Shown in pieces: positions 2-20,945 of a stretch of 64,000 nucleotides of DNA. This stretch comes from Aquitalea aquatica (GTDB lineage: Bacteria > Pseudomonadota > Gammaproteobacteria > Burkholderiales > Chromobacteriaceae): assembly GCF_013911085.1 (NCBI RefSeq), contig NZ_JACERN010000001.1, positions 62,001 through 126,000 of the forward strand, read 5' to 3'. Within the stretch, counting starts at the first letter, position 1; each line of letters starts with the position of its first letter. Position numbers and translations under genes: made by a program. Below the pieces are notes generated by a model. That model ran no database searches, had not been told where the DNA came from, and was given only the letters and a program-made list of their open reading frames with translations.

Positions 2-2404
2 CCGGCAGGAGCCGCCTTGGCTCCGCAGCTGCTGCTGCGGATGGGGGATGCCATCCAGGCACAAGCCCAGGCGCTGGCCATTTATACCGACCATGACAGC
101 TACACTCAGCCAGGGTGCTATGTACAACCCAGCCTGAAGCCTGATTTTTCGCTCGACTACCTGCGTGCCTATGATTACGTGGATAGTGCGGTTGCCTTGT
201 CTTATCAGGGCTTGGCCAGCCTGGGTGGTTTTGAAGCCTACCCCGGCGCCGAGGTCTGGAATCACTTGCTGCGGCTGGCGGAAAACTACGGGCTTGGCGT
301 CGTCCATCATCTGGATGAGGTGCTGTTCCACCTGCCGGCCCAGCCGGCCGGCGTGCGGCACGAACGTGAAGCCGCGCGTCAGGTGGCGCTGGAGAATCAT
401 CTGCAAAGACTAGGGATTGCGGCAACGGTAAGCAGTGGTTATGTGGACAATACCCTGCATGTGGATTACCAGTTGAGCGGTACGCCGCTGGTGTCCATCA
501 TCATCCCCACCCGTGACAAGCTGGAGTATCTGCAGCCCTGCGTGGAGAGTCTGTTTGCCAATACCACCTATCCACATTTCGAGTTGCTGATTGTCGACAA
601 TCAGTCGGTTGACCCGGATACGCTCGATTTCTATACCAGCCTGCAGCAAGACTATCCGGGGCGGGTGCGCATTATCGAATATCCGCAGGCCTTCAATTTC
701 TCGGCACAGTGCAATAGCGGCGTCGCTGCGGCACAGGGCGAATATGTCCTGTTATTGAACAACGATACCGAAATCATCCAGCCGGAGTGGCTGGAGCGGA
801 TGCTGGGCATTGCCCAGCGCCCGGAAGTCGGTGCCGTGGGCCCACGGCTGGTCTATCCGGAAATCGGCCGCATCCAGCATGCCGGCATTGTGCTCGGCCT
901 GCCTGCCGGCATGTTGTCGGTGGCAGATCATGTGCACGAAAAGGCCGCCCTGGATGAGCCGGGCTATATGAACCGCTTGTTGACCGAGCAAAATTACTCG
1001 GCAGTCACTGCGGCGTGCTTGCTGGTGGCCAAGGATAAATACCTGGCGGTGAATGGTTTTGATGCAGCTGATCTGACCGTGCTGTTCAACGATGTCGACT
1101 TCTGCCTCAAATTGCAGCAGCAGGGGCTGCTTAATGTTTTCACGCCCTATATCACGCTGGTGCATCATCATGCCAAGAGTATCGGCAAACAAACCTACGA
1201 CCCGACAATCGCCCTGCGTGCGGCTGCGCGGGAACAGCAGGAGCTGGGCGTCATGCTCAAGCGCTGGTTACCCCAGCTGGCGCATGACCCGGCCTATAAC
1301 CGCCACCTGAGCCTGCGCTCCAAGAGCATGCTCATCGAAAGCACTTGTGCGGTTAGCTGGTTGCCACGCGAACCAGGGCAGACCAAGGTATTGGGCTTGC
1401 CCATTGCCGGCGGCAGTGGCGAATACCGCGTCTCCTTGCCCTTCCATGCCCTGCAGCAGAGCGGACGTCTGGATACCGAACTCATTTCACCGGTCAAGGG
1501 CGGTGCCATGCCGGTGCTGTCCGTGGTGGAAATGGCCAGACTGAATCCGGAAATCCTGCTGGTGCACACCATCCTGTCCGATGGCATGCAGCATGCCTTG
1601 CAGCAGTACCGGGAATATTTGCCAGACATGCGTGTGGTATTCGGGCTGGATGATCTGGTGGGAGCACTGCCGGAGAAAAACATTCTGCACCGCCTGTGGC
1701 GCAAGACCATGCCGGACGCCCGTCCGCGCCTGCGCGCCATGCTCAAGCACTCGGATAGCCTGATCGTGTCAACCGAGCCGCTGGCGGATGCCTGCCGCAA
1801 CATGATTGATGATATCCACATCATTCCCAACCGCCTGGCGCGGCATATGTGGGGCGAGCTGACACCGGGCCGCCGTCAGGGACGCAAGCCGCGGGTTGGT
1901 TGGGTGGGTGCTCAGCAGCATCAGGGTGATTTGGCGCTGATTCTTGAGGTCGTCAAACAGACCGCTCATGAAGTTGACTGGGTATTCATGGGTATGTGCC
2001 TGCCGGAAATGCGTCCCTACATTGCAGAAGAGCATGGCTGGGTACCCTTCCAGGACTACCCTGCCAAGGTGGCTGCACTGGATCTGGATCTGGCCATCGC
2101 GCCGCTGGAAGTGAATGTCTTCAATGAGTCGAAGAGCAATCTGCGCTTGCTGGAGTATGGCGCCATGCGCTGGCCGGTCATCTGCACGGATATTTATCCG
2201 TACCAGACAAATGACGCCCCGGTATGTCGTGTACCCAATACCACCAAGGCCTGGGTCGACGCCATTCGCGCCCGCATACATGATCTGGAGGCGGCGTATG
2301 CCGAGGGTGCCGCGCTGCGCGCCTGGGTAGATCGTCATTACTGGCTGGATGATCACCTGGATGACTGGCAACTGGCACTCATTGGTCAGATTTCCAAAAA
2401 ATAA
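2..2404 (+). CDS. Multidomain glycosyltransferase (5' truncated by window edge)
   Basis: The frame is open to the left edge, so the gene starts upstream; the first possible in-window start is a TTG at 17. The visible N-terminus reads like the middle of a family-2 glycosyltransferase domain (YTDHDS, then KPDFSLDYLR). A second, complete GT2 domain begins near residue 158 counted from the TTG (VSIIIPTRDK, later LLLNNDTE as the DxD-type metal site). The last 330 residues resemble a GT-B fold (RVGWVGAQQHQGD, ESKSNLRLLEYGA). This architecture is typical of large O-antigen or flagellin-modifying sugar transferases. The gene ends 90 bp before the flagellin gene, so flagellin glycosylation is a reasonable but unproven role. 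Polysaccharide synthesis is the alternative. Confidence 0.8.
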   Translation, partial: PAGAALAPQLLLRMGDAIQAQAQALAIYTDHDSYTQPGCYVQPSLKPDFSLDYLRAYDYVDSAVALSYQGLASLGGFEAYPGAEVWNHLLRLAENYGLGVVHHLDEVLFHLPAQPAGVRHEREAARQVALENHLQRLGIAATVSSGYVDNTLHVDYQLSGTPLVSIIIPTRDKLEYLQPCVESLFANTTYPHFELLIVDNQSVDPDTLDFYTSLQQDYPGRVRIIEYPQAFNFSAQCNSGVAAAQGEYVLLLNNDTEIIQPEWLERMLGIAQRPEVGAVGPRLVYPEIGRIQHAGIVLGLPAGMLSVADHVHEKAALDEPGYMNRLLTEQNYSAVTAACLLVAKDKYLAVNGFDAADLTVLFNDVDFCLKLQQQGLLNVFTPYITLVHHHAKSIGKQTYDPTIALRAAAREQQELGVMLKRWLPQLAHDPAYNRHLSLRSKSMLIESTCAVSWLPREPGQTKVLGLPIAGGSGEYRVSLPFHALQQSGRLDTELISPVKGGAMPVLSVVEMARLNPEILLVHTILSDGMQHALQQYREYLPDMRVVFGLDDLVGALPEKNILHRLWRKTMPDARPRLRAMLKHSDSLIVSTEPLADACRNMIDDIHIIPNRLARHMWGELTPGRRQGRKPRVGWVGAQQHQGDLALILEVVKQTAHEVDWVFMGMCLPEMRPYIAEEHGWVPFQDYPAKVAALDLDLAIAPLEVNVFNESKSNLRLLEYGAMRWPVICTDIYPYQTNDAPVCRVPNTTKAWVDAIRARIHDLEAAYAEGAALRAWVDRHYWLDDHLDDWQLALIGQISKK

Positions 2405-14888: not shown

Positions 14889-15698
14889 TCATTTCTTGCG
14901 CTTGCCCTGCTCGATGAATTGTTGCAACTGCTGATAGAACAAGGGGCTGGCGAGCGCCATATTGTCTTCCTTGCGGCGGCGTGCCGGGCTGGGGGCCGAA
15001 CTCTGAATGCCCACCAGTGTCATGCGGCCGTTGATGCGCGCCAACATGGGCGAGCCACTATTGCCCTCCAGCGTGTCACAGCGGTGGGTCAGCCGGCCGT
15101 CCGGCAGCAGGCCGGTGGCCTGGCAGTTGCTGTGCACCAGCAGATGGCTCAGATCATCCAGCGGGTAGCCACCATTGGTGACTTTCCAGTTGGCTGCCTG
15201 CAGTTGTTGCTTCAGTGCGGCAGTGTCGCCGGCAAATACTGGTATTACGCCACGGCTGCGTCCCAGTGGCTGGCTTAGGCGGACAAAGGCAAAGTCGCGA
15301 TTGGCGATTTTTTTCGGGATATAGGTGCCGTCGGGGCGGTGTTCCAGCCCGGCCAGGAAGCCCTTGTCGACCTGCACCTCGCTGATGCCGCTTTGCTCGG
15401 CATACTCGCTGCCGGATAGCCCCACGGTAAAGCTGATGGCCGGATCGAAACGGCCACGCTTGTTGATGAAGCAATGCCCTGCGGTGACGACTACATCCTC
15501 GGCCACCAGGGTAGCGGTACACACCAGATGGCTGCGGGTTTCCAGCTGGCCCACTGGCTGCCATTGGGTGCTGTCGGGGTCGGTCTTGACGCGTTCATCC
15601 TTGCCAAAAAACAGGATCAGCTGTTCGGCCGTGGGTTTGGCCTGGGCCGGCAGCGGCAACAGGCAGAGAGACAGGCAAAGCAGGAGGATGCGCAGCAT
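14889..15698 (-). CDS. Exported trypsin-like serine protease
   Basis: A 269-residue chymotrypsin-fold protease with a Sec signal peptide (MLRILLLCLSLCLLPLPAQA, cleavage about residue 20). The catalytic triad is visible: His in VVVTAGHCF, Asp in NRDFAFVRL and Ser in CDTLEGNSGSPML. Cysteines near the His and Ser suggest disulfides, in keeping with the periplasm or outside. No PDZ domain is present, so it is not a DegP/DegS type. The ATG at 15698 is used in place of an upstream in-frame TTG because the signal peptide begins there. It lies downstream of the asr-like gene but behind that gene's terminator. Confidence 0.88.
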   Translation of the reverse strand: MLRILLLCLSLCLLPLPAQAKPTAEQLILFFGKDERVKTDPDSTQWQPVGQLETRSHLVCTATLVAEDVVVTAGHCFINKRGRFDPAISFTVGLSGSEYAEQSGISEVQVDKGFLAGLEHRPDGTYIPKKIANRDFAFVRLSQPLGRSRGVIPVFAGDTAALKQQLQAANWKVTNGGYPLDDLSHLLVHSNCQATGLLPDGRLTHRCDTLEGNSGSPMLARINGRMTLVGIQSSAPSPARRRKEDNMALASPLFYQQLQQFIEQGKRKK

Positions 15699-15717: not shown

Positions 15718-15740
15718 AAACGGGGCGCCGAAGCGCCCCG
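15718..15740 (-). terminator. Terminator of the asr-like gene
   Basis: Perfect 8-bp stem CGGGGCGC / GCGCCCCG closed by a TTCG tetraloop on the - strand, then TTT. It sits 48 bp after the stop of the Asr-like gene and upstream of the protease start. Confidence 0.8.
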
Positions 15741-15787
15741 AAAGTATGGCTACAGCCAACCGTAGTCAGCTGTTGATTCCATGCCGA

Positions 15788-16615
15788 TTACTTGGCAGCG
15801 GAAGCGGCCTTCTTGGCTTTGGCTTTCTTGGCCGGAGCGGAAGCGTCAGCAGCTTGAGCTTTCTGAGCGGAAGCGTCTACTTTCTTGGCAGCGTGCTTTT
15901 TAGCGTGGTGCTTTTTGGCAGCGTGCTTTTTGGCCGGAGCGGAAGCGTCAGCAGCTTGAGCTTTTTGAGCGGAAGCGTCTACTTTCTTGGCAGCGTGCTT
16001 TTTAGCGTGCTTTTTGTGAGCTTTTTTGGCCGGAGCGGAAGCGTCAGCAGCTTGGGCTTTTTGAGCGGAAGCGTCTTTTTTAGCTACTTTCTTAGCCTTG
16101 GCTTTCTTGGCCGGGGCGGAAGCGTCAGCAGCTTGAGCTTTCTGAGCGGAAGCGTCTACTTTCTTGGCAGCGTGCTTTTTAGCGTGGTGCTTTTTAGCGT
16201 GCTTTTTGGCCGGAGCGGAAGCGTCAGCAGCTTGGGCTTTCTGAGCGGAAGCGTCTTTCTTGGCTACTTTTTTAGCCTTGGCTTTTTTGGCCGGAGCGGA
16301 AGCGTCAGCAGCTTGAGCTTTCTGAGCGGAAGCATCTTTCTTGGCTACTTTTTTGGCTTTCTTGGCCGGAGCGGAGGCTTCAGCAGCTTGAGCTTTCTGA
16401 GCGGAAGCGTCTTTCTTGGCTACTTTTTTAGCTTTCTTGGCCGGAGCGGAAGCTTCTGCGGCTTGAGCCTTCTGAGCGGAAGCGTCTTTCTTTACTTTCT
16501 TCTCAGCCTTCTTGGCCTTGTGGATAGCTACCGGAGCGGAAGTGTCAGCAGCGAAGGAAGCAGTGGAGGTCAGGCCGAAGGCGGCGGTCAGAGCGAGCAG
16601 AGCCAGCTTTTTCAT
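15788..16615 (-). CDS. Acid-shock (Asr)-like exported repeat protein
   Basis: A 275-residue protein with a Sec signal peptide (MKKLALLALTAAFGLTSTASFA) followed by eight repeats of DASAQKAQAA(D/E)ASAPAKK, joined by lysine/histidine-rich linkers such as KAKKVAKK and KHHAKKHAAKKV. The signal peptide and the QKAQAA plus KKHAKKH elements strongly resemble the enterobacterial acid-shock protein Asr (about 100 residues, periplasmic, intrinsically disordered), but this protein is nearly three times longer. A histone H1-like DNA-binding protein would have similar composition, but the signal peptide argues against that. AGGAG precedes the ATG. The gene lies directly downstream of rstA-rstB, with an RstA box in its promoter region. 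Confidence 0.82.
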   Translation of the reverse strand: MKKLALLALTAAFGLTSTASFAADTSAPVAIHKAKKAEKKVKKDASAQKAQAAEASAPAKKAKKVAKKDASAQKAQAAEASAPAKKAKKVAKKDASAQKAQAADASAPAKKAKAKKVAKKDASAQKAQAADASAPAKKHAKKHHAKKHAAKKVDASAQKAQAADASAPAKKAKAKKVAKKDASAQKAQAADASAPAKKAHKKHAKKHAAKKVDASAQKAQAADASAPAKKHAAKKHHAKKHAAKKVDASAQKAQAADASAPAKKAKAKKAASAAK

Positions 16616-16734
16616 TTTTGTAAAACTCCTAAGTTCATCTTGAAAATCAAGTTTGAAGGCGGACAGATAGTCCTATTCAGGGGGGCATCCTAACGGTGCT
16701 GCAGAGCAGCGTCTACCCGTGCGATGTTTCCCAA

Positions 16735-16748
16735 TGTAACCAAATGTA
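16735..16748 (-). promoter_or_regulatory. RstA box upstream of the asr-like gene
   Basis: On the - strand the site reads TACATTTGGTTACA, an exact match to the RstA box TACATNTNGTTACA described for E. coli (recalled from the literature). It lies 120-133 bases upstream of the Asr-like start codon and 6 bases past the rstB stop codon. A TAGGAT that could be a -10 element occurs about 42 bp downstream of it without a good -35, consistent with activator dependence. Confidence 0.8.
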
Positions 16749-16753
16749 CATTC

Positions 16754-18025
16754 TCATGTTGGCCAACGAATAATGAAGCGCGCCCCACCCAGTGGCGACT
16801 TCTCTACCAGCACTTCTCCGTGATGCAGGCGGGCGATGCCAGCGACAATCGCCAGGCCCAGACCATGGCCACCAGTCTTGCGGCCACGGCTTTCATCCAG
16901 CCGGATAAAGGGGTCGAACACGCGGGCGCGATCCGACTCCGGAATGCCGGGGCCATCGTCATCCACCATGATGATGCAATTGCGGTTTTCCACACAGACC
17001 GTGGTCTGGATGGTGCTGTCGGCATAGCGGCGGGCATTGGACAGAAAATTGTCGAGTGCCCGGGTGATCAGATATTGGTCGGCCAGAAAAGTCAGCTCCT
17101 GGCCGGATGGCTCTATCCAGTTGAGGCCCGGTGCCAGCGTGGCCTGTTCGTGGATGCGCTCTTTAGCCCAGGCAATGGCATTGAACTGGTTCAGTTGCAG
17201 TGGGGCTTCCGGCCGGTCGAGCTTGGCATGGAACAACAGCTCTTCCACCAGCGAGTCGATGGCGTCCAGGTCTTTTTCAATGGCTTTCTTGGCCGGTGAA
17301 TCGTCCTCGCCTTCCAGCAGGGCCAGCCGGTAGCGCAGCCGCGCCAGCGGGGTGCGCAGTTCGTGCGCCACTGCATTAGTCAGTGCCTTTTTGCTGGCCA
17401 GCAGGGCGGCGATGCTGTCTGCCATATGGTTGAAGGCAGCGGCCACCTGACGCACACCGGAGCGGCTGGGTAGATGGACCCGTGCGGAGAAATCGCCACC
17501 AGCCAGTTTGCCAGCGGTTTTTTCCAGGGTAACCAGATCCTTCCAGTGCGGCTGCATCCACAGGAATACCGGTATTGCCAGTGACAGGCCCAGCAGTGCC
17601 AGCAAGGCGTAATCCACCGATTTGAGCTGATGCAGGAAGAACAGGTAGCGCAGCGGTCCGGCCACCAGCAGGTAGTTGCTGTCTTCAATTTTCTGCAGGA
17701 ACAGGTATTTGTCTTCCAGCATCACGATCTCGCCGCGATTGAGCGCTTCTTCCGATTCCTCATCCAGCAGGTAGTTGCTTTGTTTTTCTACCGTAACCTT
17801 GAAGGTGAAGTCGTGATTGGAGCTTTGCAGGGTTTCGGTCCAGCGATCCTCGGGTACCCCGTGCAGATCGGCCTCGATCAGCGATAGCGTGGTGCGCAGC
17901 AGGTCCGACAGGTAGCGTTCGCCAACATCGTCCACTGCCTGTTTGTAAACTGCTCCCACCATGACCACCGCCACCATGAAGCAGGTAACCAGCAGCAGGT
18001 AAAACTGGATAAACAGACGCCGCAT
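16754..18025 (-). CDS. rstB: Sensor histidine kinase RstB
   Basis: A 423-residue inner-membrane sensor kinase. There are two transmembrane helices (about residues 7-27 and 135-155) around a ~105-residue periplasmic sensor, a HAMP linker (to about 210), the phospho-acceptor box AVAHELRTPLARLRYRLALLEG, and an ATPase domain with NFLSNARRYA, DDGPGIP and GGHGLGLAIV. Identification as RstB rests on the RstA identity of its partner 2 bp upstream, on length, and on the HELRTPL-RLRYRL box shared with E. coli RstB. In enterobacteria the system is linked to PhoPQ and acid stress; the signal here is not known. Confidence 0.88.
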   Translation of the reverse strand: MRRLFIQFYLLLVTCFMVAVVMVGAVYKQAVDDVGERYLSDLLRTTLSLIEADLHGVPEDRWTETLQSSNHDFTFKVTVEKQSNYLLDEESEEALNRGEIVMLEDKYLFLQKIEDSNYLLVAGPLRYLFFLHQLKSVDYALLALLGLSLAIPVFLWMQPHWKDLVTLEKTAGKLAGGDFSARVHLPSRSGVRQVAAAFNHMADSIAALLASKKALTNAVAHELRTPLARLRYRLALLEGEDDSPAKKAIEKDLDAIDSLVEELLFHAKLDRPEAPLQLNQFNAIAWAKERIHEQATLAPGLNWIEPSGQELTFLADQYLITRALDNFLSNARRYADSTIQTTVCVENRNCIIMVDDDGPGIPESDRARVFDPFIRLDESRGRKTGGHGLGLAIVAGIARLHHGEVLVEKSPLGGARFIIRWPT

Positions 18026-18027
18026 GC

Positions 18028-18744
18028 TTATTCCCAGCCGGACAGCGAGAACAGATAGCCGCGGTTGCGTACTGTCTTGATGCGGAAGGGTTCGGTTGGG
18101 TTGTCGCCCAGTTTTTTGCGCAGGCGCGAGATGGCTACGTCGATGCTGCGATCCAGCCCGTCATAGCTGACCCCGCGCATTTCCTTGAGCAGGATGTCGC
18201 GGTTGAGCGTTTCGCCGGCATGGCTGGCCAGCAGCCACAGCAAGTCGAAGTCCGAGGTGGACAGGGCTACTTTCTCCCGCTCCAGGATCACGTCACGGCT
18301 GACCGGGTCGATGGAGAGCTGGCCGAATACCAGCTTGCGCTGGGTCTTGAGTGGCTGGCTTTCCGCTGCCGGCTGTGCCGGGCGCATATTGCGCAATTGT
18401 GAGCGCAGGCGCGCCACCAGCACCGACGGTGGGGTGGTTTTGAGGATGTAGTCGTTGGCCCCCAGTTCCAGCCCCAGAATCTGGTTCATGTCGCTGTCCA
18501 GCGAGGTGAGCATGATGATGGGGCCATCAAAGTTGGGTCGTAATTCGCGACAGATGGACAGGCCGTCCTTGCCTGGCAGCATGATGTCCAGCAGCACCAT
18601 GTCAGGGGCCTCACGTTCGATGGTGGCCAGCGCAGTATCGCCACGCGGTTCGATTACCACGTCCATCTCGTGGCGGGACAGAAAGTCGCTGATCAGTTCG
18701 GCCAGGTCGGGGTCGTCTTCCACAAACACGATACGGTAAGTCAT
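18028..18744 (-). CDS. rstA: Response regulator RstA (OmpR family)
   Basis: A 238-residue OmpR/PhoB-type regulator. The receiver domain (residues 1-120) has FVEDDPDLAEL, phospho-acceptor Asp near 53 in MVLLDIMLPGKDGLSICRELR, the conserved LTSLDSDMN and GANDYILKTTPPSVL. These last motifs are characteristic of RstA rather than of other OmpR members. The C-terminal winged helix (about 140-238) contains LNRDILLKEMRGVSYDGLDRSIDVAISRLRKKLGD in segments and ends with the usual VRNRGYLFS hairpin. The ATG at 18744 is preferred over an upstream TTG at 18771. It is probably co-transcribed with rstB. Confidence 0.92.
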   Translation of the reverse strand: MTYRIVFVEDDPDLAELISDFLSRHEMDVVIEPRGDTALATIEREAPDMVLLDIMLPGKDGLSICRELRPNFDGPIIMLTSLDSDMNQILGLELGANDYILKTTPPSVLVARLRSQLRNMRPAQPAAESQPLKTQRKLVFGQLSIDPVSRDVILEREKVALSTSDFDLLWLLASHAGETLNRDILLKEMRGVSYDGLDRSIDVAISRLRKKLGDNPTEPFRIKTVRNRGYLFSLSGWE

Positions 18745-18959
18745 GCCATGCAATCCATCGGGTTGATTCAATACCGAAGGAGTATGGCGCTTGGCGACGG
18801 CAGACTCAACCTTGCCGCATGCATGGCCGGCCGGCGCATTCGCTCATTGATTGAGAATAACCATAATAAAACTGAGATTTTTCTTGCTACTATCAATTAG
18901 GTCCATGCTTTTTGCATGTGAATGATAATTAGTAAAAATAATGCAATGGGAGAGTCAGG

Positions 18960-20945
18960 ATGTTCTTCAAGCGTAACAAGACGACAAACGCCACGCGGTC
19001 CAGCCATAGCGCGCTTGACCCCATCCAGCTTGTCCGCACACGTAGCAGTACCATGGATAATGATTTGCGTGCTACCAGCCGCAGTGATATCCGGCTGGTG
19101 CTGGGTTTTATCAATCCGGCAGCCAATCTGGACCAGGTGGCCCGCAGTGCTGCTGCTGCGTTTCCCGGTGCCAAGGTGGTACTGACTACTACGGCGGGTG
19201 AGCTGTGCTCGGCTAAGGCGGGCGATGCGCTGTACCTGCCGGCCAATCCTGGCTGGGACAGCATGGTATTCCAGCTGTTCGATCAGCAACTGCTGGCTGA
19301 CGTGCATGTGGCCAGCGTGCCGTTGGCCTGCGAAGATATCAAGTCCGGTCAGCCCAAGCTGCCGCATGATGAGCGGGTGCGCCGCCTGGTGGACAATCTG
19401 TCGCGGGTGCAGCCGTCTTTTTCCATGAATTATCAGGAAGGCTTTGTCCTGACGCTGGTGGATGGCTTGTCTAATAGTGAAAGCTATCTGATGGAAGCCA
19501 TTTACGAGTCCGACCGCTTTCCCTACCTGTTTATCGGCGGCTCCGCTGGCGGCCCGCTGGATTTCAGCATGACCCGCCTGCATGATGGCCAGAGCGCACG
19601 TGATGGCCATGCCGTGCTGGTGTTCATCAAGCTGGCACCAGCCTATCGCTATGGTGTGTTCAAGTCGCAGAACTTTCAGGAAACCGGTACCGCCTTTACC
19701 ATTGCCAAGGCCAGTTCCGAGCTGCGCCGGGTTGAATCGGTGTTCGACCGTGATGGCAAGGTATGTAATGTAGTGGATGTGCTGGCTCGCCATTTCTCGT
19801 GCCGGCCAGCCGAGGTGGCTGAGCGGCTGGGCAAATTCAGCTTCGGCATCAAGCTGAAAAACGAGATGTTTGTCCGCTCCGTGCTGGGGGTGGATGCGGA
19901 GCAGGGTGTGTTGCAATTCGCCTGTGACTTGTCGTTTGGCGAAGAGCTGCACTTGCTGAAGCAAGAGGGCTTGGTTGAGCGCACGCAAAGTGACTTTTCC
20001 CGTTTCAGCCAGGGCAAGCCGGCCGCTATTGGTGGTTTGCTCAACGACTGTATCCTGCGCCGTCTCAATAACGGCGGAGCGCTGGCCACCAGCAATGTGT
20101 ATGGCAATATCCCGGTCGCCGGTTTTTCCTCGTTCGGCGAACTGCTGGGGGTCAATATCAACCAGACCCAGACCGCAGTGTTCTTCTATCAGGCGGTGGA
20201 AAACTTCCAGGATGATTTTGTGCAGCGCTTCCCGGTGCACTATGCCAACTTCAAGAATTACTTCTACAGCCGTGAAGTATCACGTGCTCGCTGGATTGAC
20301 CGCATGAAAACCCAGGTCATCCACGAGCTGCAGGGCTACAAGAGTTTTGCCAGCCAGTTGATGGAAAGCTTGCCGCTGTTCCGTCAGGCATCCGCCGAGC
20401 TGGTGACGCACTTGATCTCCATTCAGCAGGAAATCGCCCATTTTTCGGCCAGCGTGGAGCAGGGTAACAAGACATCCAGCAATGTCAGCCAGCGTATCGT
20501 CGAACTGGAAAAAGATGCGCGCCAGATTGGCGACGTCATGCTGATGATCAAGAAGATTGCCGAGCAGACCAATTTGCTGGCACTGAACGCGGCCATCGAG
20601 GCGGCGCGGGCCGGTGAGGCTGGCCGTGGCTTTGCGGTGGTGGCCGACGAAGTACGCAAGCTGGCCAACAACACCCAGTCGAATCTCGATGCTACCGGCG
20701 GTGCGGTAGAGCACGTGATGAGTGGGGTACAGCAGGTGGGCGTGGACATGCGCGAGATGAATGCGCATGTCGGTAGCTTTGCTCAGGAAATGCAGCAGGT
20801 GATGGACTTGCTGGCCAAGCTGGCGGCGTCCTCGGGCAGCAGCCAGCAGCAGCTGGACCAGATGGTGGACAGTACTGGCGAATTGTACGAACGCATGCGC
20901 AAGGTGGATCAGGATCTGGAGGCCATCCTGGCGCTCGAGCGCTGA
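18960..20945 (+). CDS. FIST-domain cytosolic methyl-accepting chemotaxis protein
   Basis: A 661-residue protein with no transmembrane helix. Residues about 45-410 form FIST N and C domains ([37 protein letters not shown] in parts, [48 protein letters not shown]), a predicted small-ligand sensor. From about 430 a methyl-accepting signalling region follows, with the hairpin tip [35 protein letters not shown] that contacts CheA and CheW. It is thus a soluble chemoreceptor-like sensor. It is divergent from rstA, sharing a 215-bp upstream region. No che genes are adjacent. Confidence 0.9.

Follow-up and report, generated by a model that had tools for sequence, protein, structure and literature searches.

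We analysed a stretch of 64,000 nucleotides from Aquitalea aquatica (contig NZ_JACERN010000001.1, positions 62,001 to 126,000; hereafter the window), in which the genes of a two-component system, rstA and rstB, are followed on the same strand by a gene for a repeat protein resembling the acid-shock protein Asr and by a gene for a trypsin-fold serine protease of the YdgD type (Table 1). The original prediction for this DNA had described rstA, rstB and an Asr-like repeat gene, all on the minus strand, and their order, strands and coordinates are as it gave them. Its picture of a compact module stands insofar as the regulator pair adjoins its Asr-like target, but it omitted the fourth member; as read from the DNA, the full unit is rstA-rstB-asr-ydgD, four genes in order. 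Our analysis indicates that these genes very probably constitute a linked RstA-RstB/Asr-like/YdgD-type envelope-stress module.

Table 1. Features of the rstA-rstB-asr-ydgD locus, in positions of the window; offsets are counted from the start of the RstA box.
Feature	Positions	Strand	Description
rstA	18028-18741	-	OmpR/PhoB-type response regulator, 237 aa; TTG at 18771 is a further open start
rstB	16754-18025	-	sensor histidine kinase, 423 aa
RstA box TACATTTGGTTACA	16735-16748	-	two TACA half-sites 10 bp apart; 0 mismatches to TACATNTNGTTACA
Third, weaker half-site AACA	16725-16728	-	offset +20..23, 10 bp further on
-35-like hexamer TAGACG	16710-16715	-	offset +33..38, the top-scoring offset for TTGACA over 92 sites
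-10-like hexamer TAGGAT	16687-16692	-	offset +56..61, conserved position
asr-like repeat gene	15788-16615	-	275 aa; an apparent signal peptide precedes Lys/Ala-rich repeats that contain SAQKAQAA units
Terminator/attenuator-like hairpin	15721-15740	-	GGGGCGC-TTCG-GCGCCCC with T-rich tail, between the asr-like gene and ydgD
ydgD-type trypsin-fold serine protease gene	14889-15698	-	269 aa; apparent signal peptide

The orthology of RstA and RstB with their enterobacterial counterparts is established by sequence models: RstA scores 395.8 bits against the NCBIfam equivalog NF007977 (cut-off 330) and RstB 569 bits against NF007898 (cut-off 478). Moreover, the window RstA shares 62% identity with its E. 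coli counterpart, and the recognition helix DRSIDVAISRLR of the window protein includes Arg199, Val203 and Arg207, the residues that contact DNA in the Klebsiella RstA-box complex (PMC4117788). The helix, as such or conservatively changed, is found in 113 of 115 RstA sequences.

The RstA box begins at the sixth base past the rstB stop codon, 133 bp ahead of the ATG of the asr-like gene, and the exact match to the E. coli box claimed by the original prediction is confirmed. It is the only exact copy in the genome: in 4,456,915 bases the pattern occurs once, at this locus, and a reversed control pattern does not occur. With one mismatch allowed there are five sites against two for the control pattern; the other four have at most three of the six bases of the -10 consensus at the conserved offset, and none of the listed open reading frames (ORFs) behind them is Lys/Ala-rich. 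Since a single 12-base match is weak evidence, we tested the box by comparison among genomes. A scan of the window with up to two mismatches returns two sites where 1.68 are expected, by itself no excess over chance, and we therefore rely on the genome-wide and comparative scans; it is conservation across relatives that lifts the box above chance. From the promoter hexamers, transcription would start at about position 16680.

For this comparison we assembled 99 genomes, 87 through a composition filter for the asr-like gene, 11 added by eye and E. coli K-12 added directly. In 92 of the 99, spread over 25 genera, the asr-like gene is preceded by a box with at most two mismatches to the E. coli sequence. 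In a same-strand control comparison at the same threshold, such a box was found upstream of 80 of 87 asr-like genes, upstream of none of 74 ydgD genes, upstream of 9 of 117 rstA genes and inside 2 of 120 rstB genes. The position of the promoter was also compared: over the 92 sites the best match to TATAAT between offsets 50 and 62 lies at 56 in 78 cases, at 57 in 12 and at 55 in 2, and in the 25 genus representatives the mean match at offset 56 is 4.16 of 6 bases, compared with a mean of 1.48 over offsets 14 to 73. A -35-like hexamer lies at offset 33, 17 bp upstream of the -10, in the sites compared, and a third half-site of the form (T/A)AC(A/C) follows 10 bp beyond the box, in the same register, in most of the genus representatives listed. 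The count of 92 in 99, the controls, a promoter geometry like that of E. coli and the box moving with asr, as described below, thus support the central claim of the original prediction, the joint conservation of RstA, its classical target and even the box across a long distance.

Genomes were left out of the 99 for several reasons. Five family genomes carry no strong RstB match (G037, G048, G050, G051, G058), and five RstB carriers have asr elsewhere (G029, G030, G073, G228, G260). No asr-like gene was recognised in three genomes of genus g110, two of g411, G152, G191, G318, G331 and five class-level genomes; Escherichia whittamii, which has no asr-like gene in the stretch examined, and Serratia, which was found later, are likewise outside the set. 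A profile scan of the contigs with RstB alignment gave, among the matches listed, mostly other histidine kinases, and only six loci (L088-L093) were used. The genomes of g110 and g411 have rstAB with no asr-like gene nearby, and between -200 and +600 every site has at least four mismatches to the box. At their five loci (L261, L262, L265, L263, L264), which lack both asr and ydgD, the next gene looks by eye like proA.

We also considered general autoregulation of rstA through an upstream box, and reject it: besides the same-strand count given above, a box with up to two mismatches on either strand precedes only 13 of 118 rstA genes, and three of these (in G029, G030 and G073) belong to divergent asr genes. 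Upstream of the window's own rstA there is no box among the matches listed.

Could the site serve another regulator of the OmpR/PhoB type, such as PhoB, rather than RstA? Regulators of this type use similar tandem sites. However, in a sample of 300 genomes from the whole order, the strict three-half-site pattern TACATNNNGTTACANNNNGNNACNA is confined to RstB carriers (defined by an RstB match with E no higher than 1e-100), occurring in 5 of 25 carriers and in none of the 275 other genomes, although PhoB-type regulators are general; the remaining 20 carriers, the window genome among them, do not match the strict pattern. The RstA residues that contact DNA are kept as well. PhoB does control the E. 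coli asr promoter, through a site at -39 to -22 (PMC9026648). On balance we regard a regulator other than RstA as very improbable here.

The gene order is shared widely. In the window's family, Chromobacteriaceae, an asr-like gene follows rstB in 54 of 56 RstB-carrying genomes, in a second family of the same order (f5) in 38 of 43, and in family f51 in 1 of 6, all three counts resting on the composition filter plus the 11 additions by eye. Both asr and ydgD lie within 2 kb in 35 of the 49 Chromobacteriaceae genomes whose downstream sequence extends for at least 1.9 kb, in 33 of 38 genomes of f5 and in 1 of 5 of f51. A gene tree of RstA plus RstB groups the window's family, at a weak support of 0.57, with Enterobacterales and Aeromonas. 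The original prediction also held that the two loci are separate in enterobacteria. This is right for E. coli K-12, where asr-ydgU-ydgD is followed on the same strand, 9-10 kb on, by rstA-rstB, placing asr and rstAB 10.5 kb apart; it does not hold in Acerihabitans arboris, where rstA-rstB-asr-ydgD is contiguous, nor in Erwinia and Pantoea, where asr comes 1.7 kb after rstB, or Serratia, where it comes 3.7 kb after. In Aeromonas rstB is followed by a short asr-like gene, and the 5.9 kb examined contain no ydgD.

An alternative reading is that asr is expressed mainly by read-through of an rstAB-asr operon, the box being minor or vestigial. The genes do lie on the same strand, no strong terminator is among the hairpins listed in the rstB-asr gap, and in several genera of the family the gap is short (64-90 bp), with the box inside the 3' end of rstB. 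Even where it is encoded within the end of rstB, however, the box is kept together with its offset to the -10, and read-through is impossible where asr is divergent from rstAB or away from it and a box is still present. In G029 and G030, both of genus g3, asr and ydgD lie upstream of rstA in divergent orientation; asr is faced by an exact box, letter for letter the window's 14-base sequence, with TAGTCT at +56. In G073, from another family, an exact box again faces a divergent asr-like gene, with a poor hexamer (CTCAAT) at +56. In G260, where rstB has no adjacent asr, three related Lys/Ala-rich genes elsewhere (L284, L286, L287) each stand behind a box of their own with TAATCT at +56, which suggests an expanded target set, and G228 has one further Lys/Ala-rich gene away from rstAB behind a one-mismatch site. 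Read-through as the main source of asr expression is therefore improbable; since the box stands in front of asr also where asr is divergent or unlinked, the box itself appears to be the conserved unit.

Two further observations concern the assemblies. In 12 genomes (L196, L198, L202, L205, L209, L216, L217, L249, L252, L256, L257, L259) the contig stops within the asr-like gene, the repeats of which break short-read assemblies. At L222 (G044) a stop codon interrupts the rstB match in frame, and the asr-like sequence falls into two frames; as the draft is 80% complete, this may be error or decay.

Several findings weigh against the reading of the locus as a linked RstA-Asr module. Seven of the 99 genomes have three to four mismatches in the box: G023 (three) and six of the nine genomes (three to four) of genus g10, which contains Vogesella aquatica (G049, 100% over 2501 bases); the asr-like proteins of these six are short (57-62 aa) and have no QKAQA. 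No ydgD lies within 2 kb in 14 of the 49 Chromobacteriaceae genomes. G331, G428 and G655 have box-like sites with one to three mismatches after rstB and no asr-like gene. Klebsiella asr is without a classic box and is nevertheless regulated by RstA (PMC4117788), so that box identity is neither necessary nor proof. Finally, the window's repeat protein matches neither PF06392 nor NF033636, and for this reason we term its gene Asr-like.

In G428 and G655 (L278, L275) box-like sites occur upstream of rstA as well as after rstB. Behind the site after rstB comes a gene for a large protein that looks exported, and in G655 frames resembling ExbB and ExbD come next (all by eye).

Is the repeat protein an Asr relative at all, as the original prediction implied? 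It might instead be another Lys/Ala-rich protein, for instance a histone-like DNA-binding protein that converged on the same composition; that it matches no family fits this view, and two relatives weakly match the HC2 histone-like model (E = 0.019 and 0.037, under the cut-off). However, its N-terminus MKKLALLALTAAFGLTSTASFA reads by eye as an export signal, and it carries the traits of Asr: a Lys/Ala-rich composition, apparent export and repeats of the QKAQAAKK type. QKAQA(A)KK units are common to the window protein (SAQKAQAA), E. coli Asr (PAQKAQAAKK and EQKAQAAKK) and Erwinia Asr, with similar units in Pantoea. Moreover, a relative from the same family at the same locus (L040, genus g5) passes both Asr models, with 94.1 for PF06392 (cut-off 24.9) and 79.4 for NF033636 (cut-off 50). 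Other relatives fall near the cut-offs: L046 (g3) scores 26.6 for PF06392, above its cut-off, and 45.8 for NF033636, under 50, and L211 (g2) scores 24.2 for PF06392, just under. At E up to 1, PF06392 is matched by 9 and NF033636 by 8 of 19 aligned asr-like proteins, a set that includes enteric ones. The gene also always adjoins genes of the rstB or ydgD type, as in enterics. We therefore judge an unrelated Lys/Ala-rich protein quite improbable; the identification as Asr holds for the shared repeats and for the relative at the same locus, while the window protein itself misses both models. Antisense to the repeat gene, a 315-aa open frame (15746-16693, plus strand) mirrors its repeats and is probably no gene.

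The window protease scores 49.6 bits against PF00089 (cut-off 20.6) and shares 38% identity with E. coli YdgD across 245 aligned columns; its best match in the Protein Data Bank (PDB) is 7uxg, which is E. coli YdgD (E = 1.3e-44). In the alignment the catalytic motifs are intact, with the His, Asp and Ser motifs and CDTLxGxSGSP kept as in 7uxg. Over 19 aligned YdgD-type proteins the His and Ser motifs are invariant and CDTLxGxSGSP is present in 18, and in the Acerihabitans protein C-D-T of CDTL has become C-N-T. E. coli ydgD sits about 9 kb from rstAB, unlike the contiguous ydgD of the window. In the accessible literature that we searched, no substrate or function of YdgD was found.

Divergent from rstA, at 18960-20945 on the plus strand, lies a gene for a protein with a FIST domain and a methyl-accepting chemotaxis protein (MCP) signalling region, weakly NosP-like (106 bits, cut-off 450), possibly a nitric-oxide or ligand sensor for chemotaxis.

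The RstA-asr circuit is already known from E. coli, Klebsiella and Salmonella, and the window shares with it orthologous RstA and RstB, the box, a Lys/Ala-rich exported target and ydgD downstream of asr. The box-to--10 spacing is 56 in both the window and E. coli. The E. coli box TACATATCGTTACA, with TATAGT at +56, would occupy about -68 to -55, which agrees with the published position of -77 to -55 (PMC9026648), and deleting or scrambling it abolishes RstA binding (PMC11135836). In contrast to E. coli, rstAB, asr and ydgD are contiguous in the window, no ydgU-like gene was seen, the Asr-like protein has 275 aa with far longer repeats, compared with 102 aa, and a third half-site stands in register. 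The nearest enterobacterial likeness is Acerihabitans arboris, with near versions in Erwinia, Pantoea and Serratia: these share a box with one to two mismatches and a -10 at +56, but belong to Enterobacterales and have larger intergenic distances and an asr closer to that of E. coli. Our literature search, which most subscription papers lay beyond, including the original asr and RstA-box papers, found no rstAB-asr-ydgD cluster and no Asr outside enterobacteria; beyond the enterobacteria, neither the four-gene module nor its conserved promoter turned up in it.

How would such a module work? By analogy with enterobacteria, an envelope signal, presumably acid, would be sensed by RstB, leading to phosphorylation of RstA. 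The two TACA half-sites, which span about -68 to -55 relative to the implied start, would then be bound by an RstA dimer in head-to-tail arrangement, and further RstA may occupy the third half-site beside the -35. This would activate the promoter TAGACG-17-TAGGAT and yield the Asr-like protein in large amounts; in E. coli, asr is induced about 1000-fold at pH 4.4, with a strong rise also of ydgU, which belongs to its transcription unit (PMC10746267). The hairpin after the asr-like gene, which only 1 of 200 shuffles matches in folding, would pass part of the transcripts into ydgD and so split the output. The Asr-like product, exported, Lys/Ala-rich and probably disordered, would shield proteins in the periplasm at low pH like E. 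coli Asr, a disordered periplasmic chaperone (PMC10746267). YdgD would be a periplasmic trypsin-fold protease made together with it, the most economical guess being that it is the Asr processing enzyme.

More generally, the adjacency of these genes, behind a control site and promoter spacing shared with E. coli, points to a stress circuit of long standing whose parts usually move together. One may go further and picture RstA, RstB, Asr and YdgD as four parts of an ancient module for envelope protection, with YdgD dedicated to processing the Asr-like chaperone (or else its client) and with the enterobacterial gene arrangement left over as scattered remains; we offer this as a tentative idea that is somewhat more likely to be wrong than right. 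If the circuit is indeed common, down to the spacing between box and -10, to Chromobacteriaceae, a second family of the same betaproteobacterial order, and Enterobacterales and Aeromonas, then Asr would be no enterobacterial speciality. Moreover, the gene order gives YdgD, a protein whose structure is solved and whose function goes unreported in the accessible literature, a concrete candidate partner, namely Asr.

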